Virus record (IMG/VR): IMGVR_UViG_3300044675_002599
Span: 1-64,000 of that record
Source: a virus
DNA: 64,000 bases
Direction: 5' to 3' (one strand)
Under the pieces are notes generated by a model. The model saw nothing but the letters and a program-made list of their open reading frames with translations, ran no database searches and was not told the origin of the DNA. The translations under genes and the position numbers were made by a program. Below are positions 26,501 through 59,100 of the stretch, in pieces (the stretch's first letter is position 1; each line of letters opens with the position of its first letter).

Positions 26501-29500
26501 ATAAAGTGTTTGACCATCAGGTGTTACGTCACCTATTTTAGTACCAGCTGTTTTAAGCCAAGCCCAATCAGTAAAGTGAGTCTGCGCAATATTCTGGTAA
26601 AAGTCCTTCTTGTGTCGTGCTGTTTGGTAAACCATAGTGAATCGGACTTGTTTATCAGTAAGTACTCCATCGGACTTCAACTTGTTGAGTGCCTCTCCAA
26701 CAGACATCCTCTTTGCCATTGAGCGGAACTCATTAACAATCGTGTCACTACCAGTAACTCGGCTAATAATGTCAGCGTAAGATGCAACAGTTCCTTCTGA
26801 TGCATATGTCAATTCCCTATTAATAGTCCGTGTCGCATGACCATAAGCAAACATGTCATACATGTCTGCTAACCCAGCTGCTAACGACCTAGCTGCGTCG
26901 ACATCTTTTTGTAACCTAATTGCTTTTTGTGAATCACCTTGTATAGATCCTGAAGCACGTTCTGCATAAAGCGCCTCGATTTTATTCAAGACTCTAATGT
27001 CTTCTTCGCGTAATCCTGATTTGTCTATATTGGAATAAGAGTCCCGCATGAATGCAGCTACCTTAACGTCTACGGCATTCATATCCACAGGAACTACGTA
27101 CAAGGATGAGGAACCATATCGCGACGCGACCGAACCAGTTGTTGTCATTAGTGCTGGTCTATTGTCTACGGCGCTTTTGAATTCGACTGAATCACTTCTT
27201 GACTTATCGCCAAGTACTGCATGCGCTATACCAATTCGGTATGCATGATTCTCACTGGGTTTCGTTAAATCAATATCAGTATGACCAGCACGAGGGATTA
27301 ATAAATTAACAGCATCAGATGGCTTAAAGTTAATCCTGCTACCCTCAGTTACAAAATAGTTAATAACATCTGCAACATTTCGGATTTCAGAACTCCTGAA
27401 CATGTCGTTTAAAAACTTACGCGATACAGCAACACGTTCTTGGCGAGGCATAGTAGCAGGTAAGTACTGAACGATCTTAGGTATCCAGTTATTTAAAATA
27501 GTTCCTTTGACTGCATCGGTAACATCAATCTTTGATGGATCTGCATCCATCTTCATCATATTTAAAACGTCTAATCCATTGATCGCGCTTTTAATTTCCG
27601 ATCTATGTGACCCAACCTCGGTTCCACCAAGTGTTTCAATGTATTCAGATCCACGCCCACTGAACGAATTGCGTAAAATGCCTTCGAATATTTCTTGTAC
27701 GCCAGCTCTGTTGTGACCAACAAATGTTTTTACTAATACAGTTCCAGAGCCAAGATTGTTCTCAGATTGCAGATTAGTAGATTCATCCATGTTGAATGCA
27801 TCCTGTATAAGCAAAGGCGCATCCGACACAAATGCTTTTAGATCTTCTTCAATTTCAACTGGCTTTATTTGTACAACATCTTCGTCTGTTACATCGATAT
27901 TACGTATAGGGGATTCAGAGTTATCCGCTTCAATACCACCTAGTTGTGACGCAACATCCGGTCTTAACTCTTTTGAGTCAGCAGATAATCCTTGCAATGT
28001 AATTCTGCCTGATGCATCTACATTGACTGGTTCAGTTAAAAACTCAGCAGTCTCCGCTACTCTTGCCCTTGCAGCAGCATTAGACCCTTCCATGGTCGCG
28101 GCAGTTGTTGCCATTTGCACGGAAATAGATTTCCATTGAGTCTTAAATTCAGAATTAGTTCTGTATAAATCAGTTACACCAGTGGACAGAATGTTTTGCA
28201 AATAATTAAACACTTGTTCATCGACATCGTAAATGGATTTAAACATTCCACCTAAATCAAATGCGGATGCTTCTCTCAATAAAGCATTTACATCTTTACT
28301 AAAAACACCCAGTAGTCCGGATTCCTCTTGAGCTTCGTCGAGTGCTTCACTTTCAAATGCACCAGATTCAAATAATGCCTTTATGTCTTCCAATTTAGAG
28401 ACTAATGCCAAATTGTTTTCTTGTCTAGCCTTTGCAATTTGCTCGTCAATATTTTCAATGTGTTCTTCAGTATCAGCTAATGTGTCTTGTAACCGCACTG
28501 TACGTCTTGTAAATTCATTTGTATTTAAGGTTGTGCCTGAATCATCAATCAACCCTAACCCTTGTGTTGGCACAGACGCTACGGTTCTGCCTTTTACGGT
28601 TTCTCGTGCAAGCTTTCCGGATTCAGTATAAAAAGACTTAGCTTCTCCATAAGAATTAACAGCACTGTTAATTAACACCTCCAGCCTGTTTATGAATTTT
28701 TTAACTAATGCCAATTCACCGATGTCAGTTGTTGTTCCGTCATCAGGTGTTAGATCATTTAATGCGTCGTTAATTTTTTCAAGTGTTTTAACTAAACCCA
28801 TACGCTGATTAGCAAAATCATTGAAGACCTCACTGCGTATTCTGGAAATTTCCGCACCAGCACTTTTTAATTGCTCGTCTTTACCAATAGCGTCTTTATC
28901 CATTGCCTTTGCTTGTGCATAAGCTAATTTAGCTGCAACCATATCAGGCCTTGATGACAGGTACTCTAAGAATGCTGTTTTCTGTCCAGCGACATCCTTC
29001 GTTACCTGCTTAATGGCTTGATGGATTGCCTCGACATTCGTGTTGCGCATACCTGCCATTAACTCATCAGCCGGAATACCCATTGCGTCTGCAAGTAATT
29101 GCATCGATCGTGTCGTTACATGATCGTCAATTTCTTTCTCAATAGACTTTGTTTCACCAGTTGTTTCTGTAATAGAAGTTGTCTTACCAGTGGCATCTGT
29201 TGTTGCTTCGTAATTAATTTTTTGAGCAGGATTTAATTCATCAACTTGCTGTAACAAGTCTTTGATCGAGTCAATGTATTTTCCCTTTGTTTCAGCGTCA
29301 ACATCAGAGCTGTTAATTGTTTGAATAACCATCTGCCGATTTGCCTCGGAAGAAGAAATCATATTTAAAAATGCCAATGTGTTTGTGCCATCTGGAGTTC
29401 CATCTTCCCCATAAGACATAAATGTTCCATCTTTTAATTTAGCGTTAGTCTCTGTCCTGATGATATTAACTTGCAAGTCTTTAGCAATATATCCAGCCGC

Positions 29501-32500
29501 TTTTCTTGCAAACTCAATTGATGCTTCTGGGTTAAGTGAATTGAGTCTAACAGTAGCACGTTGATCTGCAGTAGATGCCTGATAGTAAAAGAACTCTAGT
29601 CCAAGAGCGTGAAGTTCTTCAAGGGCCTTCTCACCAAATGCATTGACATATTCCTTTGCATCCTTCTTTGCTTTGTTGTAACTAGTTTCATTTTTCCAAA
29701 AGTCAACTAATGAATCTGGAAGATTACTATCCTTAACCGCGACACGAATTGCTTCATCACGTGCAGAGTAAATAGCTCTGCCTAAACTAACTTGGGCCTC
29801 AACTTTTAAACCAGCAATAGAATCAATATGCCATTGTGTAGACATATGGTAAAAGGCTTGTCCTGAAATAGAACGCATAAGCTTAGATAGACTAATTACC
29901 TTTGCCATATTTAAGTCGGCAAGTTCGCCTTCATTAAGTCGCAGTGCTTTGGCTGCAGCTCTATATAAAGCAGCATCTGTCTTAGATTGAGAAGGTCTTC
30001 CAAGAAGCAAATTAATTTGATGTGCCATCTGAAATACACGTGGCCTAGCAGTACGGCTGTATGCATTTGGGACACGAGCATTAGCAGAAGCAAAAGCGTC
30101 CGACATAATCCCAAGCGAATCTAAATGTTGATGTATTTGATTAAGCGTTACTTCAAACCCATCACCTGCGAACATCTTTGCTACGCGAGTAATTGCACCG
30201 TAGTTCACATCACTATTAGGCCGTGTGACATTATCAAGCGCATTGTAAATAGCGCCCATTGTGTCGATGATGCCGTGTTGTAATGAGAAAGAAACTAGAG
30301 CTTCTTGTATTTGAGTAATTGGGGCAGTGCCATTAAGAAGGACATCAAGCAAGACGTCGTTAATATCATCAGGTGTTGCAGCTTTAATTCTTTCCCATGC
30401 TTTTTGTGTGTCGCGCCATCTTGTATATGCTGCTGCATTTTCTTCATCCGTAAGTGTTCTAACTAATGGTCGTAATTCAGGTGTGCCTTCACTTGGTGTA
30501 AAGCCAGTAGCTCTTTGATCTAATTTGTAATCATCACGAGCAGCATTTAAAACCACATCGTTTGCACTAAGAGTGTATGAAGCACCTTCTGGATCATCGA
30601 GAGACTTAACAGTAACCATTCCGTCACGTGCATCCACGACCAATGCTTCTTTTTCAGGATTAATATTGTCGCCAATGCGAGCGTAAACCATATCACCAAC
30701 ACGGGCCTTGGTGTCATAGACTAACTCACCGTTAGCAACTCGACCAATAAATCCAGTCTCGGCTGACGTGTCTGCAAGGTAGTCACTAACAACTTGTGCA
30801 ATAGCCAATTCTTTTGCATCATCGCTCATTTCAGAACGAGATATTTCTCCAAGTTTGGTTATCTGCTCTGCGTTTAAAACAACCTTTGTTGTTGTGCCTA
30901 AGTGGTCCATAGGCATTTCAATAGACTTGCTGTCTCCATTTACAATAGCATCAACCTGTTCAACCATAGATAGCTTAGATGCGTATGCTCCAGATAATAA
31001 ATCCTGTTCAGAAATAGGTTCGTATACGGTTTGGTCTGCGCCTCTAGAAATACCTTGTGTAATCACAGAGCCATCTGGAAGTTGATAAATGCCAGTTGGG
31101 TTTAATAGATTCTCAATACTAATTAATCGACCAACAGTTTTGATCTGCTCTCCAGTTGTTTGATCCTTGCCAAGATTAATTTCGGTTGGAAATGTATCCT
31201 TGTCTCCGGATATTGGATAACTTCGATCAGTAAGTTCTGTATCAGGGCTAATCCCAAGTTGCTCAATAGACTGTCTGACTGAATCTTTTATATCGTTATT
31301 GCCACGAGGCATATCAGCAACTAGCTCTTTGTAAGACATTGTCCGCACAATATCTTCTCCATTAACCCTAGTCTTAACTGTTACTCCACCCCGGTTAGTT
31401 ACACCGGTGACAACGGATATACCCATTGGTGATCTATATGACATCGCCCCTTGTGATAAATCAAGTTCATCTTTAACAAACTTTATAAGATTGTCGGTGC
31501 GGCCAATGCCCCGTAATCTAGAAACATCTTTTGCATCAATAATTTGCACGTCTGCAAAATCAGAAAGTTCTGTTTTGATTACATCTGTAAATGTCTTGTT
31601 GTAAACCAAATACTCTTGCTTGCCGCCTTCACCTGCGTTTAACTTAACGCCGTAAAAGTTTTTAGACTGTACTGCATTGCTTTCAAGGTCAGTCGGCTCA
31701 GTTGCATCGCGAGCTTCTGGAATATCTGCACCCATAGAAACACGCATTTGTGGTTCTATCTCTTTAGCCAGAGCAGCAATTTGCCGCTTCTTCCCAACCG
31801 CAGTAGTAGGATAAAGTGACTCATTGATTGGCAGCATCATCAACTTGCTTGTTGGTTCTACTGGAGTTGCATCGCCTTTTGCTCGCACCAATTGCAATGC
31901 AGCATCGACAGTTTCTTGATTGGCATTTCGGCCAGACATCATTTCAGCAAAAATAGCAGATGGGCTATTCCATGCAGTGCCCGGTGTTTGTCTGTCAGCC
32001 ACAAATTGTTCTGCAGCTAACTTACGCAAATAACTGACAACACGCTTCAAATCATCAGTGTTTCCATCTTGTCCACCAAAAGATGACTTAAACCTATCAT
32101 TTGCTAACTTGATAAATGTGTCGCCATTCTCAACAATATTACGCGCTTCTAATTGAGAATAAGCTTTTGCGTTACTACCTGCGTAAATATCTTTGCCGCG
32201 AAACTCGGATCTAAATAAGTTACTCAACTTACCAGACGGACGCATTGCACCAAACGCCATGGCTAGCGACCGGATGTAATCACCTTCAGATGGTGCTTGA
32301 ACATCCTTGTTAAACTTAGATGAGATGGCTTGCGCGACAGGTTGTATTAAGTTCGTAACGCCAAATGTAAGATCCGGTATAACCTCATTAGACAGTTGCA
32401 TGTATTCAGCAGCAGTCTTACTTCCAAGATCACGTAATGGACTAGTACCACCAGCCTTGACAGTCTTATTAGCTTCTTTAACCATCTTGTATAGTTGTCT

Positions 32501-33859
32501 GGCGTCTTTATACACACGTCCTGTTTGACCACTAAACAATGCTAGGCTCATGCCGGTTTGACTCCATGCTAATGATGGATCATTTGCCATAATGGCAGCT
32601 CTAGCCGCTTTTTCTTCTTCAGGCTGTAACGACTCTAGGTATGTATTAATTGGATCGCCAGCAATGCCGAGTGCTCGTCCTGCTGTTGTATTAGGTCCAG
32701 CAATAGTGCTTGCCGCACCAAGGGCTGTAGGCGTCAACATACCGGCAGTACGCGCAACGTTTAATGCTCCTGCGGTTCTTGCAAAGGGAGTGGCTAATTT
32801 CATAGCCAGCTGCCCATAGGCTTGCATTACAGGAATAGATCCAGCTAATGATACTGATTGAGCAGCCATCTGCTCACCATAGTGACGTCCTACTTGATAA
32901 GTTTTATCATTAACGTCACCAAACTTTTTCATGTAGGCTTCTTCGTAGTCTTGGTCTTTGACTCCGAACATTCTGTTGCCAATTTGTGGTGCAAGCATTG
33001 TAAATTGCTGTGCGCCTTGTTCTGCTCCAGCACCTAAACCAAGTAAGTAATTTGGCTCAGATTCCGCACTTATGTCTTCCCATGGTTTGTATTCACCGCG
33101 AGCACGTTTTTCCTCTATTTTAGCAATGCGTTGTTGTTCTTTTGCGTAAGCGTCAGCCATTGGTGAGTACTCTTCTTCTTCACCTGCACCGACACCACGA
33201 CTATCACGTAACCTAAACGAGGATGCTAATCCACTAAGGGTTCCTGCAGTAGCAGCAAATGTACCGCCAATTGTATTGAGAGCAGTATCATCACCACGTG
33301 CTCGTTGCTTTGCTATACCACCTGCTAAATTTGTTTTCTCATCGGCAGATTCAGCCTCAATGTCAGAGACGGAAGCGTCATTTCTAAATTGACCTCCCAT
33401 CATTAACTTACTCGCAGGTACTTTCTGCTCAGTACCGGGGTCAGTAACTTCTATGTTTGAAAGGTTTTGCGTAAGAGATTTATACTTAGATGTTAGTTCA
33501 TCGTATTCTGACGGCTTAATAAAACCTGACCGATAAGCATAGTTGATGTTGTTTAAAGTTTCTTTGCCTACGACTTCAGGGTTGTTTTCGTTTAACTTCT
33601 TTTTAAGTGGCTCGACAAATTCACTGCGTACTCTACGCGCCTTTGCGTTTTCTTCTGCAATTTGATTGTCGATGTCTTTAACGGCAACAGTGTAACTTGG
33701 TCCAGACAAAGACCTAGACCGCATTGCGTCGGTAAGTTTCTTTCTCTTACGTAATAACTCATCACGTTTTGACCCAACCGCTTTGCTTGCGGGTTGCTCA
33801 ACTTTAACGTTTTCGTATCTATTAGTACGTGGGTTATAACGTAAGATTGATCCTTGCAT
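20540..33859 (-). CDS. Giant 4439-aa virion-associated polyvalent protein with metalloprotease motif
   Basis: One uninterrupted frame of 4439 codons. Its place after the 249-aa and 648-aa genes copies the gp14-gp15-gp16 order of T7, so it is probably an ejected internal virion protein. A zinc-peptidase motif (FTLAHEVSHVL) lies at residues 2482-2493, with a GHEMG near 2575 as a possible further ligand. A segment near 2238-2255 (MTTTGSVASRYG) weakly resembles an ADP-ribosyltransferase. Residues about 335-400 are Ala/Gly-rich and hydrophobic, and the last 700 residues look like polyvalent-protein-associated helical domains. The end overlaps the endolysin start by eight bases. Confidence 0.85.
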   Translation of the reverse strand: MQGSILRYNPRTNRYENVKVEQPASKAVGSKRDELLRKRKKLTDAMRSRSLSGPSYTVAVKDIDNQIAEENAKARRVRSEFVEPLKKKLNENNPEVVGKETLNNINYAYRSGFIKPSEYDELTSKYKSLTQNLSNIEVTDPGTEQKVPASKLMMGGQFRNDASVSDIEAESADEKTNLAGGIAKQRARGDDTALNTIGGTFAATAGTLSGLASSFRLRDSRGVGAGEEEEYSPMADAYAKEQQRIAKIEEKRARGEYKPWEDISAESEPNYLLGLGAGAEQGAQQFTMLAPQIGNRMFGVKDQDYEEAYMKKFGDVNDKTYQVGRHYGEQMAAQSVSLAGSIPVMQAYGQLAMKLATPFARTAGALNVARTAGMLTPTALGAASTIAGPNTTAGRALGIAGDPINTYLESLQPEEEKAARAAIMANDPSLAWSQTGMSLALFSGQTGRVYKDARQLYKMVKEANKTVKAGGTSPLRDLGSKTAAEYMQLSNEVIPDLTFGVTNLIQPVAQAISSKFNKDVQAPSEGDYIRSLAMAFGAMRPSGKLSNLFRSEFRGKDIYAGSNAKAYSQLEARNIVENGDTFIKLANDRFKSSFGGQDGNTDDLKRVVSYLRKLAAEQFVADRQTPGTAWNSPSAIFAEMMSGRNANQETVDAALQLVRAKGDATPVEPTSKLMMLPINESLYPTTAVGKKRQIAALAKEIEPQMRVSMGADIPEARDATEPTDLESNAVQSKNFYGVKLNAGEGGKQEYLVYNKTFTDVIKTELSDFADVQIIDAKDVSRLRGIGRTDNLIKFVKDELDLSQGAMSYRSPMGISVVTGVTNRGGVTVKTRVNGEDIVRTMSYKELVADMPRGNNDIKDSVRQSIEQLGISPDTELTDRSYPISGDKDTFPTEINLGKDQTTGEQIKTVGRLISIENLLNPTGIYQLPDGSVITQGISRGADQTVYEPISEQDLLSGAYASKLSMVEQVDAIVNGDSKSIEMPMDHLGTTTKVVLNAEQITKLGEISRSEMSDDAKELAIAQVVSDYLADTSAETGFIGRVANGELVYDTKARVGDMVYARIGDNINPEKEALVVDARDGMVTVKSLDDPEGASYTLSANDVVLNAARDDYKLDQRATGFTPSEGTPELRPLVRTLTDEENAAAYTRWRDTQKAWERIKAATPDDINDVLLDVLLNGTAPITQIQEALVSFSLQHGIIDTMGAIYNALDNVTRPNSDVNYGAITRVAKMFAGDGFEVTLNQIHQHLDSLGIMSDAFASANARVPNAYSRTARPRVFQMAHQINLLLGRPSQSKTDAALYRAAAKALRLNEGELADLNMAKVISLSKLMRSISGQAFYHMSTQWHIDSIAGLKVEAQVSLGRAIYSARDEAIRVAVKDSNLPDSLVDFWKNETSYNKAKKDAKEYVNAFGEKALEELHALGLEFFYYQASTADQRATVRLNSLNPEASIEFARKAAGYIAKDLQVNIIRTETNAKLKDGTFMSYGEDGTPDGTNTLAFLNMISSSEANRQMVIQTINSSDVDAETKGKYIDSIKDLLQQVDELNPAQKINYEATTDATGKTTSITETTGETKSIEKEIDDHVTTRSMQLLADAMGIPADELMAGMRNTNVEAIHQAIKQVTKDVAGQKTAFLEYLSSRPDMVAAKLAYAQAKAMDKDAIGKDEQLKSAGAEISRIRSEVFNDFANQRMGLVKTLEKINDALNDLTPDDGTTTDIGELALVKKFINRLEVLINSAVNSYGEAKSFYTESGKLARETVKGRTVASVPTQGLGLIDDSGTTLNTNEFTRRTVRLQDTLADTEEHIENIDEQIAKARQENNLALVSKLEDIKALFESGAFESEALDEAQEESGLLGVFSKDVNALLREASAFDLGGMFKSIYDVDEQVFNYLQNILSTGVTDLYRTNSEFKTQWKSISVQMATTAATMEGSNAAARARVAETAEFLTEPVNVDASGRITLQGLSADSKELRPDVASQLGGIEADNSESPIRNIDVTDEDVVQIKPVEIEEDLKAFVSDAPLLIQDAFNMDESTNLQSENNLGSGTVLVKTFVGHNRAGVQEIFEGILRNSFSGRGSEYIETLGGTEVGSHRSEIKSAINGLDVLNMMKMDADPSKIDVTDAVKGTILNNWIPKIVQYLPATMPRQERVAVSRKFLNDMFRSSEIRNVADVINYFVTEGSRINFKPSDAVNLLIPRAGHTDIDLTKPSENHAYRIGIAHAVLGDKSRSDSVEFKSAVDNRPALMTTTGSVASRYGSSSLYVVPVDMNAVDVKVAAFMRDSYSNIDKSGLREEDIRVLNKIEALYAERASGSIQGDSQKAIRLQKDVDAARSLAAGLADMYDMFAYGHATRTINRELTYASEGTVASYADIISRVTGSDTIVNEFRSMAKRMSVGEALNKLKSDGVLTDKQVRFTMVYQTARHKKDFYQNIAQTHFTDWAWLKTAGTKIGDVTPDGQTLYGYMTKIRRDEALMNLVAIGKGSSNGYRSAFTLAHEVSHVLIDSLDPVLQTKFMETLFPDNMSGTIIDPLNKSVFTLDDNPYAVMRAQIQAVKKAVENNTFTTLQDAWKTDPRLINYSDRWHTAGHEMGVTGILNFALRNDFVISDNDAASIDYDMMSVMEQVSGPLNAFARQIMKSNPTDFVSINGAPRTVWISDLPVISYTTTTPAPKVGSKKAYNKERTTRPFISMRRNDFIRFSVTPQMARQVGGLYFGPDSLAGGMVDPAFNSTANPAHMGYGYPVEYTSGTYKRDTFLPVDDAQGAAILADISSGKLEGFIAPQASASSASRDPGTNAATNTFNGQVVGMIVKTRFENLADVEAAGFVAAFRTQDPVNRNKYYWWVKSSIEGDNWFTPRAYQTAGSETADQRGANYQTAVTEDYAYVAESPMVIHYKEPTSDGFTWKQRKVNGKFVLGQTALANQSMQAKMMGNTGGYDAKFSNLIYNMNRKFSLAQYNLRGNLRFRDQQALEQQLSLGVSNKYARNYSLDPQLDLATRLGAYMGSEQQRVVNASGIDYGARISAGSRVFKNTMWNIMKQNNDYFTDIGYLTEDGEAFIGRINDALVDVSGFISNAGLYRHNENALNSVRRLSSDAPVVLVGKDSREARALRAFHQTLIETSPDAGNEGASLLYAKQVFKRIYDVMNNFDPTGENKGMSLESISDILATDSITQDAASYFDIDVDGESINILSPLSTMFSSGLLHINDGNVADVGGERLIDQSNEFDQVYNDTILNINRGLDITSNNRLDQGATSVAAGHVMNLLFKHVYSKPSQQKDFLQRLQSEDLNVRARAFTEVQAVALLSDLQSREVGRALYNWQNFKLIGDSFSQKNNVIIQNESGASFRVSLNDNSVVSVSRDPFTGTWVDRDYLADRMPLYSTEARDTPRKKANGEVVQDITQDQMLSILSGSERSELSTNKSIVIARPMSITDLIANNELADQTSGLRFYQVAAVRRTQSMGDTKFGEKMGITTESGISFTATELSNPYKSVNEDGSNNQDIASQNPRLLIDTVFKNDILDSKQRDSVGNKKLVPMQVHIAKLLTSQEIMRGIEDASDLQDWMEKSKSLTTIREAFFEAENGSVYKEVNTAVVKSNENSTWMSAGNDSIDVEEIMPDNYKKAMYPGFDIPEHLADDPIAVRAYNELQVTRFLREVGTVPSEPKNLVIHNDDSLSGTVSSVQVKGDTLYVSIPSRIYEETSAALFSSSISPSPSGPTPTSSVTKLAPGQMTKTPWFKTKRGKAVSSALSSVWVELTSIAKAMVLNYDFGRTFIQNYALTSMNPKNALMQFYGIAAMAPNLPFGSTATTGKGFAGKLIGAIAGHRKLGAFGDKAYHNVVQGLFSRYGTPGNNIRLGILPFGPKTEVFGFGNPGSGRAYTIDDLTQTGLVTDYGEWYSQATELAMLNGTDIYDYAIQNTTSETFGSGVLTKLLPLANPIERGNSLSTDILRIKTWLEYAAKVDSNILLSPYKKMKMKQDMSTHINAMTGAPSGSDPALKPVVKGILDFGRTAMSAPQWHKSQAMQSLLPAFISMGLKATANKLIMGVNKYSDPLGIGDGWVDNQAEKRFFSMGPDAWVQTAKVVGSMAMQTTLLGLISNMMSQYIDNRRFLNKADSPTDWYDFATIFGWNHSKFANVKPAPGVWTGMIPFTKEYGGVRLFNSIAYDLPQSSTFFNRSLVAPFQRTANASNTQDALKIYFDEVAKALFWSRLTSLVSTVKTAATGKTYLKSAAMQQSKGYDVLREGRIKVPFGPTTLMDAAYRTTLGEHASELALTMTNVQYQSLLNDIALYDADTKGKGDTELSDAMKWSLYLKILGVNSRYSNFAVKDIIKNKRIDGLFYGIKEQQQYPNAADVVNRFGVKSLLQGIPDSAPDNPISVMYGYPSRTTAAMSKIDKKAYAESVAKNIQKKVPMPPLLGESEEDAGEETRRQADELLEKMEERALRRRSRGGGSYE

Positions 33860-40000: not shown

Positions 40001-40353
40001 GAGGGGAAAACAAATGACGCGCCAGTAGTTTGATCTGTAATTTCTGTTTCTACTGCAGGTGTTGCCGATGGATCGGTTGTAAATAACTTGCCATTTTTAG
40101 CATAAACTAATTTACTTACTCCACTTGTGCCTTTCAATGACGTCAATTCATATACTGGATTAGCGTTGAACGTGTTGCAAATGCCTTTAAATCCATTGCG
40201 AACAACAAGTGAATTGCCATCAACCATCATGTTTTCTATGTTTTGCGCGTAACCATCTTTCAACTTATTTGGCTGTGTTCTGGTGTCCATGCCTATAAAG
40301 TTAATGTCACCAAGTACGTATGACTGCTGATTGTTTACTGCTCGTATAGCCAT
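37024..40353 (-). CDS. Tail nozzle / stabilisation-like protein
   Basis: 1109 aa. The N-terminus (GDINFIGMDTRTQPNKLKDG, then YAQNIENMMV and a V-RNGFK segment) is the pattern of phage nozzle or stabilisation proteins that read TRxxPxxLxxGxxxxxxN. The rest is strand-rich with many Gly-Ser turns, consistent with beta-propeller and beta-sandwich domains. It would form the distal tail tube. The ATG at 40353 overlaps the previous stop as TAATG and has AAGGGG upstream. Confidence 0.75.
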   Translation of the reverse strand: MAIRAVNNQQSYVLGDINFIGMDTRTQPNKLKDGYAQNIENMMVDGNSLVVRNGFKGICNTFNANPVYELTSLKGTSGVSKLVYAKNGKLFTTDPSATPAVETEITDQTTGASFVFPSLGKDVRMTQYGRYIYGVGGSGSTFSLFRTNGTIGASMPVVAGPTSTKPNAVGITKNLKQYTSGTYADSAANATFASSTPSDNRVLNPIFATFGTSTCANWNVTAGQPSIGTGSGNDVLLKPIPWTGKKGTVSKGADGRTSGRLVHIDQPQDYIVQDITGLPTYTQNGSTAKVNGLFKLSFYLMNYDDAKPFNGQYINVIVKGYSGSVPGLGNLINGAVFSAVADAAPKQTTADWILFEYVVDFREFESTLVSLQVSLSNGGWERFDDPGILIDGVYMYSLLSSANDNAVTTDLGLATVSAVQVNSNITGMYGGYVQNRLIKLSLGAAFDMSSDRALGIRAELHPNIRTNGLPISLGVQESSGAINWTGQAIYNAQSRFLEFQLFPIPATVRDAVTALYLRFDEDIEDVSNSSVLIGLGDVVRQGGLLPDNQYKYIFTRWKAAPAAWRATSAYAISAPPGEGIETTSSDFSQQIESSVAYSRGRITFTETGLRNSTTDYNYDYLLIYRRCDTIFTDGMPRLIGMIPINLGTAGSYTGQAAQVFDYAAASPALVAADGLTFDVTWAGNVGTYTIYDDVKDTDILYSTNIGRQGDFYHSGNDQLPTGLSSIASHKQRLFVSKDNALYASWPLNKDNEYGVYTTNIPNVQDPFLAIKGALMTIGSQDDKEKIVNLLSYAGDGVVAAGGDTSAVLIAFRENSIVPIMGFDPTSFQAQQFVREPGAGLLAPKGIASVIGKPLYVTSSGISTMAGTTIEPVSLPLEGVLNPRSSDYGPTGSASYISAAAYSGIILLTHERRLYAFSPVAGATTATSNSVCYVWDSRTTGWVKWNLPIFSSVQTFATSAVSCTSTNDVADMYIGGSNGQVFRLEGFADRPTYSGANSNIAWKLLTRQYGQTYAEGVAYYGINRPHQCNIHYFSPVSTTITWKVTSNRNATGYSKSYTTAVNEDKAIALRQLPVDLRGSWLQLELTGSVQSRLEIHAASLQSTESAVRRS

Positions 40354-41135
40354 TACAAACACCCCTTACGAGTAAACTGTTTACTCAGTGTCCCGTCCCT
40401 AGTCATCGTACAAGTAGTAGAATCATCACGATAATATCCACGACTACCTATTAATTTACTAATTGCATACATTCTAAATATTGGCAAAGTATATGGTAAA
40501 TCAGCTGGTTGTCCGTTTGATGTTATGCAATTTATACTATTGCCACGATGATATTCACTACTCGATATTACTTCTGCAAGATCATACAATCTAAATACTG
40601 GCAAAGTAAACGGTAAATCCGCCTGACTATCTGAACACTGAACTTGATTAGTCAGCCAACTAGAAGATAATGTTGGCGGAATACGCCAAGGCGGGCATTC
40701 ACATAAATCAGCATATATAGCATTTGATGTAAAAGATGCACTTGCAGTTATGCTGACTGAAGATGGAGGTATAGGTCCACCAGTCACGATACCTGAAGCT
40801 GCTGATGTTGCAAATGCACTTAATGTTGAAGAAGATATGTATGTTAGAACAGAACTTACACTTGCTTTTGCAAGAATAGATCCACTCACATTGTAATTGA
40901 TAACAGATGATGTTGTTGCAAATGCAGACTGCGTACTAGTTGCTGTTCTTGTAACGTTAGTCGTTACTGTTGCTTTTGCTGTTTGCGCACTGCTAACTGA
41001 TATTGTAGGCGTTGAAGATAGAGTAGCAAAAGCACTAAGGCTTGCTGATTTGTCACCACCGGGAGGAGGTGGTGCTGCAAGTCTTGCGGCTATAAATATC
41101 GCTGTTATATAACCAGCGCCAAGTGGTAGTGCCAT
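40353..41135 (-). CDS. Repeat-containing tail or fibre protein
   Basis: 260 aa. The N-terminal half is Ser/Thr/Ala-rich with SAFAT at residues 34, 70 and 106, an exact 36-residue period. The C-terminal half has two units of about 39 residues (172-203 and 211-242) with ADLPFTLPVFRLY and ADLPYTLPIFRMY, each ending near a Cys. A hydrophobic start (LPLGAGYITAIFIAARL) may anchor it. Probably a virion surface protein. Confidence 0.65.
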   Translation of the reverse strand: MALPLGAGYITAIFIAARLAAPPPPGGDKSASLSAFATLSSTPTISVSSAQTAKATVTTNVTRTATSTQSAFATTSSVINYNVSGSILAKASVSSVLTYISSSTLSAFATSAASGIVTGGPIPPSSVSITASASFTSNAIYADLCECPPWRIPPTLSSSWLTNQVQCSDSQADLPFTLPVFRLYDLAEVISSSEYHRGNSINCITSNGQPADLPYTLPIFRMYAISKLIGSRGYYRDDSTTCTMTRDGTLSKQFTRKGCL

Positions 41136-41617
41136 TAGTCTAGGGTAATACTAATGCCTGTATTATTTGGAAACGTGATTGTTTGACCAGCTCCAAGAGT
41201 CACTGACCCACCTGTAATATCACCGTAAAATAAAATAGATGCATCTGTGCTGGCTGTGGCGCTAATTGCTTGAGCATTGCAAACAGCGATACCTGCAATA
41301 GTAATTGCTCCGGTGGCAGTAAAAGAAACAACTGGGATATTAGTCAATGGTCCGGGAGTTGCTGTGCTTGCTGCAGTATTTGCTCCGCCAACTCCAAAAA
41401 CCTGTGCTGGAGTTGCACCAATAGCAATTCTATTTGTTGTGTAACCACCAGTGCCTGATGCGATTTCAGCCAAAGCAGCATCGGATGTTACGTTTGACAT
41501 TAATGCTAAGTACAATTGACCTGCAGCTCCACCACTTGCTGCAAATGTTGTTCCGCGCAATAAATGATTAATGAGATTTGCTTCAGTTGCATTTGTAAAC
41601 GCTGTTGTTGTTGCCAT
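41135..41617 (-). CDS. Phage tail fibre-like protein (160 aa)
   Basis: Starts with TNATEANLINHLLRG and has QLYLALMSNVTSDAALAEIA followed by Gly-rich strands, a pattern shared by small fibre-tip proteins of many phages. Beta-rich throughout. Between the repeat protein and the separate fibre C-terminal domain. Confidence 0.7.
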   Translation of the reverse strand: MATTTAFTNATEANLINHLLRGTTFAASGGAAGQLYLALMSNVTSDAALAEIASGTGGYTTNRIAIGATPAQVFGVGGANTAASTATPGPLTNIPVVSFTATGAITIAGIAVCNAQAISATASTDASILFYGDITGGSVTLGAGQTITFPNNTGISITLD

Positions 41618-41619
41618 GA

Positions 41620-42513
41620 CTATGTTCCTACCTTCACAATTGGATCTGCAGTAATGCTAGTTGTAATTGGCTGTGACCAAATTATTGTAGTATCAGCTTC
41701 ATTGTACACATTAACTTGTGTGCCACCTGACGCATCTACCTTGTTGCGTAAAATGCGCAACGCATTACGAACTGTCCGCCCACTGGATGTAGTAGATACT
41801 TCATTTCCAGAACTATCAAGATTACGTTTAAGTATAGCATCGGCTATTTCTTCAACCGCGTCAGTAGCTAGCGCATTTGCATTAATAGCACCTGCCGCAA
41901 AATCAGCAGCAATGATAACGCCCGGTTGCATTTCATGTATATCAGCTGCAATATGATTTGAACCTGTTATAAATGTTTCATTAGATGGCGATGTTGATTT
42001 TGCTCTAATCGTTCTTGCACCAAAGGTGTTTGCTGTTGTGTAAGAAGCAAGCAACGCATTCCATACTTCACTGGCAATAACGCCATCAGTAATAGATGCC
42101 GCAGTAATAGCATTAGTTGCAATACTGGCTACAGCAACAGAACCCGTCAAGTCACGAGTTGCATATGACCACACATCCGCAGCCGTAATACCCGTTGAAG
42201 CAGTAGGGTCATACGCAACAACTTGCGCCATAAGAACAACAGGCCGAATACTAGTGTCGACTACGGTTACTGTTAGAATACCCAAATCACTTAGGAATGA
42301 AGATGCCATCTCGTAGTACCAGTGACCATTTTCAATATGCACAAGTGTTGCAGGTGTAAAAGGTTGAGTAGAAAAAGCAACTCCGTTTTTATACAGACGG
42401 ACTGTTGGCCCTGTAAGAGTATTAACTGGAGTATATCCATCTGCGGGATTTGCAAGAAACATATATATGCGTCGATAAGTAGCAGTTGTTTCATTCTGTT
42501 TAAACTGTTGCAT
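41620..42513 (-). CDS. Stand-alone fibre C-terminal domain protein (297 aa)
   Basis: The N-terminal 90 residues look like a strand-rich tail domain, and the end (GRTVRNALRILRNKVDASGG, then VYNEADT) matches the C-terminus of the fused fibre at 43855 (ERTVRSALRSLRNKVAVASG, then VYKENDA). So this appears to be the same domain as the fused C-terminal part of that protein, here as a separate gene. One-base overlap with the beta-helix gene. Confidence 0.7.
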   Translation of the reverse strand: MQQFKQNETTATYRRIYMFLANPADGYTPVNTLTGPTVRLYKNGVAFSTQPFTPATLVHIENGHWYYEMASSFLSDLGILTVTVVDTSIRPVVLMAQVVAYDPTASTGITAADVWSYATRDLTGSVAVASIATNAITAASITDGVIASEVWNALLASYTTANTFGARTIRAKSTSPSNETFITGSNHIAADIHEMQPGVIIAADFAAGAINANALATDAVEEIADAILKRNLDSSGNEVSTTSSGRTVRNALRILRNKVDASGGTQVNVYNEADTTIIWSQPITTSITADPIVKVGT

Positions 42514-43637
42514 TAGTTGATCCCCGCATTAATTGTATATCGTGGAGCAGTAGCCGCTCCACTACCAGCACTTACTGGATTGTTCTCTGCCACACCTACA
42601 GATGGAGGACTAGGACGTGCATACGAATAAATGTCATTAACAGGCGCACCAGTAGCAGTACCATCGCCATTCACAATCCCAGTTAGATACGGCTGTACAA
42701 ACAAATGCCTAGATGAACCCGTTAAGAATCCAGCACCGAGATCGATACCAAATGTTCCTACTGTAATTGTGTTTGCACCTGTTACTGAAAATCCAACACG
42801 AGGGACACTGAAACACGTCAATCTATTGTAGTCCTCCGAAATTTGGTCAGTTACGTTTGCTGACATAGCCGTTGTAACTCCCATAATTAAGCAGTTTCGT
42901 ACAGTTACAGAGCCGACCGCATATAGAGCAGTGTTGACAAGTATTCCAGTTGCGCCACCAAATGTAGTACAGTTAGTAATAGTAATTCCGCTTAATATCC
43001 CAGTAGTTCCTGATGACAGCAAAAAGATACAAGATGACGTACTAGCCATAATAAAGCAGTTTGTAATCGTAATACCTACATTGATTGCACCACTAGAGGC
43101 AACAGGAGCTATCTGTAACACGTTAGCCCTGCCAATTAAAATGCAGTTCTTGACAACGCTGTTTGATGTAGTACCACTAGGAATATCAAATCGGCAAGCA
43201 CCACTACTTCCAGTAGTAGTCATGTGACACTTATCGAAAGTTATGTTTGTACTCGAACCTTGTACACGAACCGCATAACCCGTGGAACTTTCAACACGTA
43301 TATTTTTAAAGGACAAGTACGTCTTGCCTGACATACTTAATGTGTCACTAGTAGAACCAGCGGTGTCATCGTTAGTTAGAAATGCAGTAAGTCGAACTTC
43401 ACCAGCAGTACCAAAAATAACACCATCTGTATCACCAATAATATTAGTAGTTGCTGGTGATGTAGTAAAGCCAACTGTGACAATCTCACGATAGACACCA
43501 GCAGCTATATAGATAGTGTCACCAGAGGCTACACCAGACGTTGCACCAAGAGCATAATTAATCGTTTGCCAAGCTGCACCTTGAGATGTACCAGCAGATG
43601 CATTACTACCAGTTGTTTTAACGTAGTACGTTGCCAT
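42513..43637 (-). CDS. Right-handed beta-helix tail protein, cassette 2
   Basis: 374 aa. The opening MATYYVKTTGSNASAGTSQG and the recurring ITNCFIM, ITNCTTFG, VRNCLIMG coils are those of a parallel beta-helix. Such domains make receptor-binding tailspikes, sometimes with glycan-hydrolase sites; no catalytic residues can be named here. Second copy of a duplicated fibre cassette, lacking the fused C-terminal domain. Confidence 0.75.
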   Translation of the reverse strand: MATYYVKTTGSNASAGTSQGAAWQTINYALGATSGVASGDTIYIAAGVYREIVTVGFTTSPATTNIIGDTDGVIFGTAGEVRLTAFLTNDDTAGSTSDTLSMSGKTYLSFKNIRVESSTGYAVRVQGSSTNITFDKCHMTTTGSSGACRFDIPSGTTSNSVVKNCILIGRANVLQIAPVASSGAINVGITITNCFIMASTSSCIFLLSSGTTGILSGITITNCTTFGGATGILVNTALYAVGSVTVRNCLIMGVTTAMSANVTDQISEDYNRLTCFSVPRVGFSVTGANTITVGTFGIDLGAGFLTGSSRHLFVQPYLTGIVNGDGTATGAPVNDIYSYARPSPPSVGVAENNPVSAGSGAATAPRYTINAGIN

Positions 43638-43858
43638 TAATCAGTACCAGCAATCTGAACAGCCATCACCGACATAAAGATGCCTACATACTCAAGTTGA
43701 AACTCTTCACTCTGGTTATTCCACCAGTCATTGACAGATGTTCCATCTATACCAAAAGTACTAATCACATTGCCAGCATCGTCCGTAATGTCGGCTTTGA
43801 TATTCCAGTCAGGAATCGGTTGAGTGACTCTAGTTATAACCACGTTATTTAGATTCAT
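43637..43858 (-). CDS. Small fibre-associated protein, cassette 2 copy
   Basis: 73 aa. Paralogue of the 75-aa protein at 45447: I count 38 identical residues out of 73, including TFGIDGTSVNDWW versus TFGVDGTSVNVWW. Each copy lies immediately upstream of a beta-helix protein and overlaps its neighbour, which suggests an assembly or linking role. Confidence 0.75.
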   Translation of the reverse strand: MNLNNVVITRVTQPIPDWNIKADITDDAGNVISTFGIDGTSVNDWWNNQSEEFQLEYVGIFMSVMAVQIAGTD

Positions 43859-45447
43859 GAAGGGTCTACCGTAACGTCAGAAGTATTAGACAACGATCCA
43901 GTCCATGCCGTGTCTGCATCGTTCTCCTTGTATACGGTCATTGTGCCACTTGCTACAGCTACTTTATTACGCAAGGATCGCAATGCAGAACGGACAGTAC
44001 GCTCGTTCAACGTACCAGCGTTAGCACCGTTGCCGAGGTCTGCGCTTAGGATGTCGCTGGCGACAGATAGCAGCTTGATAGTCATCACCGCTCCGTTAGT
44101 ACCTGCAGCACCCTTTACAACAACTGTAACATCATCAGCACCTAGGGCTACCGCAGCATCAGGAAGATCTAAACGGTAAACACCCGGCATCGTAGAAGCG
44201 TCAACTTCTTTAAATCCGCCAGACACCCAGATGTCAGTCATATACGTTAGATTGACAAGAGTTATTGGTACGCGGTTACTGCGTGTACGATTGAATGTAG
44301 CCGTCAACCCAGAGGTGGATGCTGTAAGACCTGTTACACCAAGGTACAACTCAATGCTTTGTCCTGTACTGCCGGGGACGATTGTGATTGCACCAGAGTT
44401 GCGCTCTGTAGGATTATATTGACCTGCAATAACGGTAGGGCGATAAGTTATTGCGCCAACATCAGGAGTTACGCCATACCAAGTTGTGCCATAGATATCA
44501 GTTGGGAGTGAAGCAATTGTGTTGCCCGTACCAATATTTTGACTGTCTTGTAAACTTCCCAAAAACATACCAGACGTAATATTATTTATGGAAGCGTAGC
44601 CTAAATCAATTCCAACTGTTCCAGTTGTAACATTGCCACCACCATCTGTCAATGTCCAAGCATTAGTTATATTTGTTGTGTTTCCTATATATCGGTTGTT
44701 TGCATGAGTAGAAACACCCCCATTAAACAATCCAGTAGACATATGTATAAATAATGAGTTGTATAAACTTACACCAGAACCAGTATTTGGAACGTACACT
44801 CCAGTTCCACCGGCAATAAATGTGCAATTACTAACAATGTGTCCATTTCCGCCTAGATATATACCTTCTGCACGCGTAGCAATATATATATTATTTTTAT
44901 GTGTGGAGGGGGGAGAGTAAACAGCAGAACGAAAACCAAAAAATACACATCTCGTAGTAACTGAATTACTATTGTTAATATTTATGTCGTTCACATTGTT
45001 TGCTGTTGATTTATTACTATTAATAAACGCACAGTTTGTAAACTTTATATCGGAACCAGTTATATTAATAACTGGAGTTACTGAATCTCCTGCAGCATCA
45101 AAGTATATGTTTTTAAAATGTATAAAATTTTTCGTGCCAGTAATTAAAAAGACAATATTTCTGGCTTGATTGTAGGGTTGTGCAAATTGACTTAGTTTTA
45201 CATACCCTGACGGAATTCCACTAAACTGAGCCGCTGTCGGATCTCCTACTATTTGCACCTCAGAAGTAACAGTACCTCCAAGAGTAACAGCTTCGTTGTA
45301 GTGACCCGGTGCAATATAAACTATGTCTCCACTTGTAGCACCAGTTGCGCCAAGTACTTTTTGAAATGTCTTCCACGCTAAATTCGTTGCTGAACCTAAG
45401 CCAGTGTTAGCATCATTTCCGTCAGATCTTACATAATAAGTAGGCAT
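43855..45447 (-). CDS. Right-handed beta-helix tail protein with fused C-terminal domain, cassette 1
   Basis: 530 aa. N-terminal MPTYYVRSDGNDANTGLGSA and a beta-helix with coils such as IKFTNCAFINSN and IVSNCTFIAGG run to about 340. Then come a strand-rich domain and a C-terminal helix-strand element shared with the 297-aa protein. It is a probable tailspike. Overlaps the small protein upstream by one base and the one downstream by four. Confidence 0.75.
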   Translation of the reverse strand: MPTYYVRSDGNDANTGLGSATNLAWKTFQKVLGATGATSGDIVYIAPGHYNEAVTLGGTVTSEVQIVGDPTAAQFSGIPSGYVKLSQFAQPYNQARNIVFLITGTKNFIHFKNIYFDAAGDSVTPVINITGSDIKFTNCAFINSNKSTANNVNDININNSNSVTTRCVFFGFRSAVYSPPSTHKNNIYIATRAEGIYLGGNGHIVSNCTFIAGGTGVYVPNTGSGVSLYNSLFIHMSTGLFNGGVSTHANNRYIGNTTNITNAWTLTDGGGNVTTGTVGIDLGYASINNITSGMFLGSLQDSQNIGTGNTIASLPTDIYGTTWYGVTPDVGAITYRPTVIAGQYNPTERNSGAITIVPGSTGQSIELYLGVTGLTASTSGLTATFNRTRSNRVPITLVNLTYMTDIWVSGGFKEVDASTMPGVYRLDLPDAAVALGADDVTVVVKGAAGTNGAVMTIKLLSVASDILSADLGNGANAGTLNERTVRSALRSLRNKVAVASGTMTVYKENDADTAWTGSLSNTSDVTVDPS

Positions 45448-45674
45448 TATTCTGCTGTTCCTGCTGCAATTTGCTGAGCCATAACCAACGCAAATTGATA
45501 AACAGTACTTTGTTGAAACTGTTCATCTTGTTGAACCCACCAGACATTGACGGAAGTTCCATCTACACCAAAAGTGCCTAATAAAGTACCGTCGTCATCT
45601 TCAATGTCACCAAAAATCAGCCAGTCAGTAGACGGAGCTGGGACTTTTTCAATTTTAAAATTCTGGAGGTTCAC
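45447..45674 (-). CDS. Small fibre-associated protein, cassette 1 copy
   Basis: 75 aa, beta-rich then helical, acidic (FGDIEDDDG). Paralogue of the 73-aa protein at 43637. It is coupled by four bases to the 60-aa gene upstream and one base to the tailspike downstream. Confidence 0.75.
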   Translation of the reverse strand: MNLQNFKIEKVPAPSTDWLIFGDIEDDDGTLLGTFGVDGTSVNVWWVQQDEQFQQSTVYQFALVMAQQIAAGTAE

Positions 45675-55053: not shown

Positions 55054-56134
55054 AGTGTTGTACTATTTTTCCTACCAAGTTACCAAGCATTGATGTTTTA
55101 CTAGCAACTGCATTTTGTCTAGCATTACTAGCTGCAGCTTTAACTGGCTGTAATACTTTATCATCATTAGTTTTGTATTTAGTTTGTAAGTCAGTCATAA
55201 ATTGTTGTTGCGCTGGCGTTTGACCACCTTGCAACAATTCCATGATGCGAGCAAGATCACCATATTGAGGATCAAGTTCACCTTTTCCACCACGTCTTGG
55301 CCTAGAGATAGGGTAGTTGCTTTCAAACTTTGACGCGCCACCCATAAAGTCAAACGCACTGTCAACTTTTTGTTTTGCTGCGCCACGTACATTAGTTCCA
55401 AATAAAGTGTCAAAGTCACCTAATGCTTTAGAGGTGCCATGGGCTAGTGAGGAACCTAATCCGTAGCGTTGTACTGCTTTATCAATCATAGGTTCAACAG
55501 TGTTTTGGAAAGCATAGTCCTTACTCATTTGAAGAGCGGGAGCCATATCGCTTCCAACTATTTTTGCTGTTTGTTTACGTGCAGTTGGTCCCATTAATTT
55601 ACTTGGGCCAAGGCCTCCCTTTAGACCAGTAAGTTTATTGCCAGCTAGATCAATACCGATATCAGTGCCAACGTTTAATCCATTTTTTAATGCAATTGCA
55701 AGTAATTGATTATATGTATAGTCTCGACCTTCTTCTCCAAAAAAATCATCTGTTGTGTCATCAGGAGTATCTTTACCTTCTTGATATCCATAACCCATGT
55801 CTTTAGGATTAAACGCTTGATATGTTTGATGTGCGTAATCTAACTGGGTTGGTAAATCCGCAATAAGTCTATTTCTTAGACGTGGATCTACCTTAGTACC
55901 AGCGGTTGCTACTTGACGAACTTTTGTTAATTTAGAAGGTTCACGTCTTTGCCTAACTGCTGCTGAACCACCAGTTTTTAATGCTTTTGCATCTTTTACT
56001 TTTGTGCCAATGCCAAATCCAGTATCAACAACTTGTTTACCTTGGTTGGCGAGCATTAAGTAACTTAGCAGATCTTCACCAACGTTTAATCCACGTTGCG
56101 CAGATGGCTTATTTTTTTGGTTTTGTTGTGGCAT
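55043..56134 (-). CDS. Unrecognised 363-aa protein before terminase
   Basis: Starts MPQQNQKNKPSAQRG, with a GGAGGATC ribosome site before the ATG at 56134. A basic, disordered N-terminus, a Gly/Asp-rich centre with DTPDDTTDDFFGEEG, and a helical C-terminal half. It shares the MPQ opening and basic start with the 300-aa protein at 61022. Possibly virion-packaged. Confidence 0.6.
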   Translation of the reverse strand: MPQQNQKNKPSAQRGLNVGEDLLSYLMLANQGKQVVDTGFGIGTKVKDAKALKTGGSAAVRQRREPSKLTKVRQVATAGTKVDPRLRNRLIADLPTQLDYAHQTYQAFNPKDMGYGYQEGKDTPDDTTDDFFGEEGRDYTYNQLLAIALKNGLNVGTDIGIDLAGNKLTGLKGGLGPSKLMGPTARKQTAKIVGSDMAPALQMSKDYAFQNTVEPMIDKAVQRYGLGSSLAHGTSKALGDFDTLFGTNVRGAAKQKVDSAFDFMGGASKFESNYPISRPRRGGKGELDPQYGDLARIMELLQGGQTPAQQQFMTDLQTKYKTNDDKVLQPVKAAASNARQNAVASKTSMLGNLVGKIVQHFGQ

Positions 56135-59100
56135 TTTTTGATCCTCCAAATACTCCACCTAATTTAGCTGCAAATCCTCTACCAAAACCTATTGCCTGAT
56201 TTGCTGCACTAAGCAATCCACGACCTCTTCTAGCAGTTCGTATTATTGTTCCTTGTGAAGTATCACTAGGCGGTCGCCTTTGTATAGGAGCAGTTGATTG
56301 CATTCCCTGTGGCCGTTGTTTTGGTGGTTGTGGAACCGGTGTAGTTCTTGCAGTATTTACTGGAGCACGTTGTGTTGTAGCAGCTTTACTTGCAGGTGAT
56401 TGTTTTGCACCGGCTCTTGCGCCAGCAAGTGTCCTGTCTTGACGTTCTTTAATTGCGTCAGCTTGATCTTGCGCAGCTTTTTCAGCAGCAAGTTTTTCGG
56501 CAGTGATTTTATCAGCAGCTTGCCGTTTTGCCTTAAATCCTCTATCAACAGTAACACCTTTAGCTTCTGCTAATTTTTCAAGTTGTGATACAGATTTTGC
56601 TTGTTTTAAAACAAATTCAATATCTTTTGCAATCGCAGGGGTTGGAGCAGTAAATGTCAACATTGCATCTTTAAGCAATGGACTTTCAAAAGAATATGTA
56701 CGTCGATTAGACGTCTGCTTAGTATCTGGCGCTGAACCTTCTGGAACTGATGCAGTTGTAACTGTAGTTGATTTTTGTCGTGGTGGTTTTTCTGCTGCAG
56801 CACGTCTTTGATCTGTACGTTTTTGTTCTGGCGTACGTCTATTTCTATCAACTGCAGCCTGTAACTCCCTAGCTTCTTGTAATGTTTTAAGTCCAGATTC
56901 TTCCAGATCAATAGGGTTACTTGCTGTACTTTCACGTTTAATTGCTGGCATATTTGCAGCAATAGATGGCTCTAGTTTTTTCCATTGACGTTCAAACGCA
57001 GTTAAGAATCTAGGGTCATTTAAACCAGTAACTGTTTTTGTTTCGGTGTCATAGCCAATACCTAAACTACTCCATGCCTTATCGTCTCCTCCAAGACTTT
57101 TAACAAGATCTGAATTTAAAGCAACAACCTTATTAAGCACATCTTGCGGAATATTACTTGCTTGTGCACGTAAAAACTTTTGATAATCTTCTGGGTTTCC
57201 AGTCGTCTGTGCAATTGCCCAACCAGTTGTGATTACTCTTTGTAGTTTAAAATATGCTTTCTTTTGATCAAGAACATATTGTGCTTTAGGATCTAGTTCC
57301 CCTAGTGTAGGAGGCTTCTTAATTCCACTGACAGCTTCTCTAGCCTCATCAGCTAGTTGCGCCTCTGACATCTTTGTTCTTGAGGGCTTTAAATAATCAG
57401 GAACATCTACAGTCATTGCTACGGGGTCAATTTTAATTCCCCGCTTTATCATTCCATTTAATTCATCACGTAATACAGCCTTTAGCTGTACGTCTTGATC
57501 AGAATCAATTATTGTAGTTTTTAATTGCTTTAAGGCTAGTTTTACTCTATCCTTTGAAACTGCATCTAAACTATCTACAAATGCGGCTGCGCGTTCTGCG
57601 TTGTCTGGATCAACGAGACTTTCAATTGTTTGACTAACTGACTCACCTGCTCGTTCACGAGCGATTCTAATGTCGTCACCGCGACCCTTGCCCGGTGATA
57701 TTAATATCTGACCATCTGAAACTACTTTAGTTGGCACAGAATCTGAATTGCGTTCCCAGAATGTTAACGAGGAACCACGTAACGTATCTGCATAACGATT
57801 TTTAATTTCATCAATACCAGTGCCAGAGTAATCTCCAGCCTGTATGTCCCTAGTTAATCTGTTGGCTGAGTCAATAAATTCAGCGCGAATGTGATCCGGT
57901 ATCTTACTTGCTTCAGAAGTAATAATTTCTTGTACACGTTTTGCGTTGTCTTCAGGTGATGCGTTTGGATCTGCATTTCTATCTACGGTTTGTGATACAC
58001 GTAGTAATGACCTAGTAGCATCTGCTACATCTTCAGATGCTTTTGTTGCAATGTCATTTCTACTGATTTTGGCTACTACTCGATCATCTATTCCACGAGA
58101 CTTACCACGTGTGCTTGTAGCATTGTAAGAACTAGATGCCCTCATATCTCCAGTTATTGTGCCTTGTGCATCAACTGCTTCTGCGAATGCAAGAAGCCGC
58201 TTTCCTTGATCTCTATTCATTCTGCCGAGAAAACCGGCAAACTGTATATCGGACATACCAGCAATAGAGTCTGGATCCGTAGTAGGACCCATTAAATTAG
58301 CAATATACTTTCGTCTACCTGCATAATCAGGTGCGCCTTCAGCAAGGGAGCTTACGATCAATGAATGCATTTGCCTAGCTTGTTGAGCAATGTATCCACC
58401 GGGGATTCCATATCTATCGCCAGATAGTCCAGCTGCAAGTAAAGAGCTAGTGCGTGTGCCAACGCCATACTGCTCACGTTGACTTTGTGGAATCGTGACA
58501 GTCATTGTCATAGGCTTACCAGTTTTTGGATCTGTAGCCTGTTCGAACTCAACCTCTAAATTGCCAACTGATTTTCGTTTTTGATAGACCGGAACAACAG
58601 CATTACCATTTTTATCAATGACCACGTCAACAGCTGGAGCTTCTTTAATAAATTCTCCGTAACTACTAACTGGATTAATCTTAACTGATGTCTGCGTTGC
58701 AGCAGAAACGGTACTTCGACCTACTTGCGAATTAGCTAAATCTACGCCACCAAAATAGTTTGGAGCGTTGATTCCTTTTTTGTTGACCCATGCATCAATA
58801 ATGTCAAAGCCTTGAGCAAGTCGCTGCTTTCCAGTTACTTGTTTTGGTCTTGTGAAATCAGCTTCATCACCTGCGCCAGCTCTTTCAAAAAATGGCGATG
58901 AGTTACGACCTGCGCCAGATGAATTACTTCGATCTAACATTTCAGACGTGTCATCTAATTTTTCAGTCAAGAATGTCTTAAATTCATTAAGGCTCTTGTA
59001 TTCAGGATCTTCTTTCCCAGTTGTTTTAAGCCTGTCATCAATTTTTGAAATGAGTCCGCGCATTGAGTTCATCGTGTTGTCATGGAGCTTATCTCCGTAA

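Follow-up and report, generated by a model that had tools for sequence, protein, structure and literature searches.

Evidence for a modular two-slot adhesin locus with candidate C-terminal docking peptides in an uncultured podovirus-like phage

The IMG/VR virus record IMGVR_UViG_3300044675_002599 is 64,358 bases long, and most of it (positions 1 to 64,000, hereafter called the window) was analyzed here because of two adjacent gene cassettes that appear to encode receptor-recognition proteins. Each cassette comprises a small protein, a beta-helix adhesin, and a connector, and the two together very probably constitute a modular adhesin locus with two positions, termed slot 1 and slot 2. In cassette 1 the adhesin and connector are fused in a 530-amino-acid (aa) protein, whereas in cassette 2 they are encoded by separate genes. 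An earlier note had described this region as a duplicated tail-fibre cassette, and its five named open reading frames (ORFs) are indeed present on the minus strand where it placed them. Neighboring ORFs share 1-4 bases, an arrangement expected of genes on one transcript. The parts of the two cassettes, including immunoglobulin (Ig)-like domains, and the gene that follows them are listed here with the basis for each assignment.

45447..45674, minus strand: small1, the 75-aa partner protein of the slot-1 beta-helix (pairwise match to small2; helix association in relatives)
44428..45447, minus strand: slot-1 adhesin body, a right-handed beta-helix, residues 1-340 of the 530-aa protein (AlphaFold and VIA fold comparison)
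44068..44400, minus strand: fused Ig-like connector domain, residues 350-460 of the 530-aa protein, connector type S4 (phmmer)
43858..44091, minus strand: slot-1-type C-terminal end (NERTVRSALRSLRNKV...), residues 453-530 of the 530-aa protein (alignment, tree of ends)
43637..43858, minus strand: small2, the 73-aa partner protein of the slot-2 beta-helix (pairwise match to small1; helix association in relatives)
42513..43637, minus strand: slot-2 adhesin, a 374-aa beta-helix with a gene of its own (Pfam PF13229; homology to the 530-aa helix)
42516..42545, minus strand: short C-terminal peptide (tag) PRYTINAGIN of the 374-aa adhesin (match of tag and N-domain classes; codon analysis)
42202..42513, minus strand: N-terminal Ig-like domain, the candidate "socket," of the 297-aa connector, type S3 (AlphaFold and VIA)
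41623..41874, minus strand: slot-2-type C-terminal end (GRTVRNALRILRNKV...), residues 214-297 of the connector (alignment, tree of ends)
41135..41617, minus strand: 160-aa relative of the podophage GP4 fiber I protein gp80 (Pfam PF23140)

As judged by alignment, the paralogy of the two cassettes covers all three of their parts. The small proteins are identical at 37 of 71 aligned positions (52%, E 4e-23), which upholds the likeness reported previously with a slightly different count (38 of 73). The beta-helices of the 530-aa and 374-aa proteins are also homologous (27% identity over 382 columns, E 7e-21), a measurement absent from the earlier note. Likewise, residues 453-529 of the 530-aa protein match residues 214-291 of the 297-aa protein (ERTVRSALRSLRNKV and GRTVRNALRILRNKV, respectively, fall in this region) with 31 of 80 positions identical (39%, E 8e-9), as had been noticed. 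These E-values refer to single pairs and lie far beyond chance. The proposal that one C-terminal domain is fused in one cassette and encoded separately in the other holds for only the last ~80 aa, because the domains that precede the shared part belong to different families. The fused domain (residues 350-460) matches the N-domains of separate S4 connectors in other phages (phmmer E 1e-15 to 1e-19). The S3 N-domain of the 297-aa protein compares with the fused S4-type domain at a profile-profile probability of 33% over 40 columns, and the comparison with a third N-domain group gave little or no similarity. Therefore, the two cassettes are not the fused and split forms of one gene.

The assignment of both adhesins as beta-helices, also made previously, proved sound. 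The 374-aa protein matches Pfam PF13229 (E 3e-7). The 530-aa protein does not match this family by sequence, but its single-chain AlphaFold model shows a confident beta-helix in residues 1-340, mostly with a predicted local distance difference test (pLDDT) score of about 90. This part of the model (residues 1-336/340) reaches VIA Z values up to 25 with beta-helix lyases and 19-20 with the tailspikes Kp32gp38, Pam1, and CBA120. Neither helix is preceded by an N-terminal virion-anchor domain, and both begin within the first residues (MPTYYV and MATYYV). The fused Ig-like domain is modeled poorly. The N-domain of the 297-aa protein is Ig-like (pLDDT about 87), and its matches by VIA include 4v96_AB from the viral genome injection device of TP901-1 (Z 7.1), 6v8i_AN from 80alpha (6.8), and 9m8o_P from NF5 (6.7). 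Values of about 7 are in the range of unrelated Ig folds, though phage baseplate chains rank among the best matches. Weak Pfam matches to SUKH-4, HisKA_4TM, DUF4082, and fn3 fell under the cut-off and were disregarded.

A search of viral contigs, using as queries the capsid protein, both small proteins, and two sets of C-terminal proteins, yielded 231 related loci, which contain 125 distinct C-terminal proteins. When used alone, small2 recovered only two loci. Between the conserved upstream genes and the gp80-like gene, these loci share the order small protein (73-96 aa), adhesin (about 350-460 aa), and connector (about 220-650 aa), with connectors terminating in R(T)VRxALRxLRNK... and with one or two cassettes per locus. 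In some loci the adhesin and connector are fused. Two adhesin families are found among the relatives, namely beta-helices and a second, non-helix family. A gene of the small1/small2 type precedes 51 of 51 beta-helix adhesins and none of 55 non-helix adhesins, and therefore the small protein goes with the adhesin fold. Another small-protein family, with 26 members, is confined to non-helix adhesins. In loci L122, L135, and L148, and also in slot 2 of L123, two adhesins stand in tandem before a single connector; a GGFSG-like tag ends the first, and a FSQIEG-like tag ends the second. Both adhesins may share that connector.

Separate adhesins carry a short recurrent peptide as their last ~10 residues, and its type is matched to that of the N-domain encoded by the next gene. 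The tag classes are as follows.

AANPLAGYVR: precedes M-KY-GDF connectors
GGPVIGGRLIN: precedes MIPYIGDF connectors
(Y)TINAGIN: precedes MQ-FKQNETT connectors, the type found in the window
VHPGMSGGIRG: precedes connectors of the Ig-like type
SIPASFSQLEG or SASFTMFNG: precede FQIK-type connectors

Tag class agrees with connector N-domain class in all 70 classifiable cassettes, which include both adhesin folds. Two cassettes could not be classified, one where the connector start is probably miscalled (L222) and one with an out-of-frame junction (L180). After dereplication to 36 cassettes, the N-domain class still follows from the tag without exception (permutation p 2e-4, the lowest value the test allows), also when permutation is confined to adhesin families. 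Because the classes had been named after the data were seen, a class-free test was added. Where adhesin bodies are unrelated (1386 pairs), alike tags occur in 53% of the 415 pairs whose N-domains are homologous and in 0 of the 935 pairs whose N-domains are not. Conversely, tags are alike in none of 518 pairs that combine homologous bodies with unrelated N-domains. An identical tag was found after two unrelated adhesin folds.

Alternatively, these peptides could owe their conservation to a ribosome-binding site of the next gene within their codons, with linkage and translational coupling producing the correspondence and with no role in docking. The genes do overlap or abut, with adhesin-connector gaps mostly between -8 and +6 bases, and tag codons in part form a purine-rich, Shine-Dalgarno-like stretch (GGAGG- or GGGG-like) before the next start codon. 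The codons for PRYTINAGIN in the window likewise contain a GCGGGG stretch ahead of the connector's start codon. However, the portions VHPG, AANPL, and RYTIN lie upstream of the purine stretch and are kept despite codon variation, and a ribosome-binding site would not account for one tag being shared by two unrelated folds. Degenerate residues shared among tags differ in codon in 49% of cases, while the 30 residues upstream of the tag are only 13% identical. Because codons vary while the flanking residues diverge, the tag is conserved at the protein level, and we regard a purely translational role as unlikely.

A different pattern governs the far end of the connector. In a tree built from the last 82 residues, slot labels require 2 changes, compared with 28 when shuffled. 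The helix tree has far less order by slot (9 changes versus 14.5 shuffled). Thus, in these trees, adhesins occur in either slot and ends cluster by slot. Two pairs of cassettes from opposite slots illustrate this point. Between L042 slot 1 and L180 slot 2, identity over the helix and Ig domain is mostly 78-98%; between L167 slot 1 and L176 slot 2, it is 85-100% over about 480 columns. The ends of these pairs, however, are only 47-66% identical. The reverse is seen when the window is compared with L158, whose capsid protein is 93% identical. Here the Ig domain and end are 90-100% identical and the helices mostly 20-50%. With L158 and L159 considered together, the slot-1 Ig domain and end of the window are again 90-100% identical and the helices about 20-70%.

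Among relatives, the type of the slot-2 end also varies with the gene that follows it (Mantel rho 0.56, p 0.001), to which adjacency may contribute. In several loci, the gene after the connector encodes a MAAGFRSPFF-type protein of 74-96 aa in place of a gp80-like one (slot 2 of L033, L042, L165, L170, L177, and L185, and also L044, L064, L065, L075, L076, and L221). The end type shifts together with this next gene (GRLVKEALYALRNKS and others).

A conserved C-terminal domain on variable bodies is reminiscent of intramolecular chaperones (PMC10579305), and the ~80-aa end might accordingly serve in trimerisation or folding and not as a virion anchor. A folding domain need not vary by slot, however, whereas these ends do vary with slot and also, in slot 2, with the gene that follows. 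This alternative deserves some weight but is improbable. The polarity of the connector could also be the reverse of what we propose, with the N-domain proximal to the virion as in BppU and the conserved end facing outward. The phage baseplate chains among the top matches of the Ig-like N-domain fit such an orientation. It would nevertheless make the most conserved part of the connector an exposed tip while the adhesin bodies vary, and the N-domain type follows the adhesin tag and not the slot. We consider a reversed connector quite unlikely.

The history of the locus bears on the earlier proposal, in which a tandem duplication in this phage lineage preceded the splitting of one copy or the fusing of the other. 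Homology of all three parts between the cassettes is what this scenario predicts, and paralogy as such is well founded. In one type of relative (L083/L173/L176), both slots contain fused beta-helix cassettes whose two sets of ends group together (98/96), and a tandem duplication may have occurred in that other lineage. For the window itself, alignment and phylogeny with related phages, which had been suggested as a check, do not support the scenario as proposed. Slot-1 and slot-2 ends form separate lineages across many phages, and therefore the two ends of the window are old lineages. As described above, the fused Ig domain and the N-domain of the 297-aa protein come from different families. 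Moreover, cassette 2 has been exchanged horizontally by itself. In L057, the small2, 374-aa helix, 297-aa connector, 160-aa, and 260-aa proteins are 93-99% identical to those of the window (96-99% for cassette 2, with 99% for the 374-aa adhesin). Elsewhere, identity falls to 64% for the capsid protein, 56% for a 215-aa protein, and 34% for the first part of a 1112-aa protein, and cassette 1 of L057 has a small1 that is 51% identical and a different helix. Cassettes therefore move separately and horizontally, and duplication followed by fission or fusion within this phage lineage is very unlikely.

On the slot-1 tree, the fused state switches at least twice. At L180:7499-9258, a slot-1 helix is joined to a connector out of frame, with ~210 bases missing relative to L160. 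This helix is closely related to the slot-2 helix of L160, which is encoded separately. The junction is either an assembly error or a natural intermediate on a possible route to fusion.

On balance, these findings are probably best explained by a two-slot receptor-recognition locus of exchangeable parts in an uncultured, aquatic, podovirus-like phage. Each adhesin of about 370 aa would recognize a receptor, the two in the window being beta-helices of the tailspike or lyase type, and the earlier suggestion of two receptor specificities is plausible. The small protein tied to the adhesin fold is probably an assembly chaperone or cap. The connector would consist of an Ig-like N-domain, a flexible linker, and the ~80-aa end. 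A separate adhesin would dock through its C-terminal peptide on the N-domain of its connector, in the manner of a plug and socket. In slot 1 of the window, adhesin and connector form one polypeptide, and hence no tag would be needed. The end, presumably proximal, would determine which of the two slots on the virion the assembly occupies. Recombination between the parts would then allow phages to swap adhesins, even those of different folds. We place moderate confidence in docking by the tag and in anchoring by the end. The chances are evenly balanced for the broader proposition that the phage family uses a general docking code, with at least five mutually exclusive peptide/domain pairs and slot-addressed ends, by which adhesins of unrelated fold can be plugged in at either virion position.

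Several considerations weigh against this interpretation. Translation of the next gene may account for part of the tag conservation, given the overlap of tag codons with the Shine-Dalgarno-like stretch, and linkage of the adjacent tag and connector adds to their correlation. The slot names denote gene order and not virion position, and monophyly of the slot-1 ends is neither rejected nor shown (p 0.48). AlphaFold confidence is low for the linkers and C-terminal ends of both proteins, for which we claim no fold. Finally, the N-domain of BppU is located at the virion core, and if the connector N-domain were homologous to it, the polarity could be reversed.

By Pfam, the phage has a P22-like portal, which gives it the look of a podovirus, and its capsid protein is of the GP7 type; PHROGs identifies a terminase and a DnaB-type helicase. 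The capsid protein is 24-28% identical to those of Streptomyces phages and has no close relative among annotated phages. The 297-aa and 374-aa proteins have no relative among annotated phages, and of the 530-aa protein only the Ig domain matches there, in two uncultured Manatee Spring phages. PHROGs gave no useful match for cassette proteins. In the PDB, sequence searches with the adhesin, the connector, profiles of both, and the 160-aa and 1112-aa proteins gave no usable match, and no relative of the end motif. Profiles of the fused adhesin and the capsid protein found no relative in 84,980 bacterial and archaeal species genomes searched for a host. Elsewhere on the minus strand, a single 4439-aa ORF (20540-33859) occupies about a fifth of the genome and adjoins a 261-aa protein whose match to the CHAP domain is weak and below the cut-off. 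Also on the minus strand, a 1635-aa protein (56109-61016) has no Pfam or PHROGs match, and tRNA genes lie at 2046-2117 and 63860-63933, for Asn (gtt) and Arg (tct).

The 160-aa protein adjoining cassette 2 downstream matches PF23140 with 29.2 bits, above the curated Pfam cut-off of 27, and is thus a member of the family of the podophage GP4 fiber I protein gp80. This assignment concerns the downstream gene only, and for the cassettes themselves no related PDB chain was found by sequence. In GP4 fiber I, an elongated rope protein links the beads. The window encodes, next to the gp80-like gene on its downstream side, a 260-aa protein rich in Ser/Ala repeats (40353-41135, minus strand), with relatives of about 90 to 700 aa, which by analogy could be a rope protein of this kind.

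Among systems with BppU (TP901-1, 80alpha), a connector likewise has an Ig-like N-domain (VIA Z 6.8-7.1) and a linker. This likeness is no greater than that seen between unrelated Ig domains, the phage studied here looks like a podovirus, and no Pfam match to BppU was found in the cassette proteins. The C-terminal domain of BppU holds the receptor-binding protein; the end described here tracks slot rather than adhesin. The closest parallel among known systems is found in K1-5/SP6-like and Klebsiella phages, which combine an adapter with N-terminal peptides (PMC6872550). K1-5, SP6, and K1E use the T4gp10-like adapter gp37 with peptides of 7 and 11 residues, and second receptor-binding proteins of Klebsiella phages carry conserved peptides (PMC6872550). 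As in those phages, a short conserved peptide is matched to an adapter partner, although here attachment is only suggested by the correspondence in 70 of 70 cassettes; there are two adhesins per phage, and adhesin genes are exchanged with broken synteny. In contrast to those phages, the peptide is C-terminal, several tag-domain pairs exist, and there is a separate slot-specific end. The partner domains here are Ig-like or uncharacterised, and no T4gp10-like domain appeared in Pfam, PDB sequence, or fold lists, in which distant folds can be missed.

Two other systems share more general traits. The branched tailspike complex of Ackermannviridae is assembled via N-terminal domains of the spikes, and these phages also have several tailspikes that are swapped by recombination (PMC11414711). 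Unlike theirs, the assembly proposed here would proceed via C-terminal parts and separate connectors. Alteromonas phages share host-recognition modules of a tail fibre and a chaperone, the latter encoded downstream from the fibre (PMC10579305). There too, fibre and partner protein travel together between distant phages (PMC10579305), but the small partner gene of our cassettes is upstream of the adhesin. Searches of an open-access library returned no prior account of this arrangement of tag, connector, and slot, although one may still exist.

Most known examples of modular receptor-binding proteins have their anchors or docking peptides at the N-terminus. The system described here is set apart by the C-terminal position of its peptide, its several pairs, and its slot-specific ends. 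If our interpretation is true, a C-terminal tag used across unrelated folds, together with slot-specific ends, represents another solution to the same assembly problem. It also yields direct predictions for the binding of purified parts, and the tag and small partner protein offer simple markers for the adhesins of such uncultured phages. If true, the tag system would explain how adhesins in this phage group can change independently of the rest of the genome.

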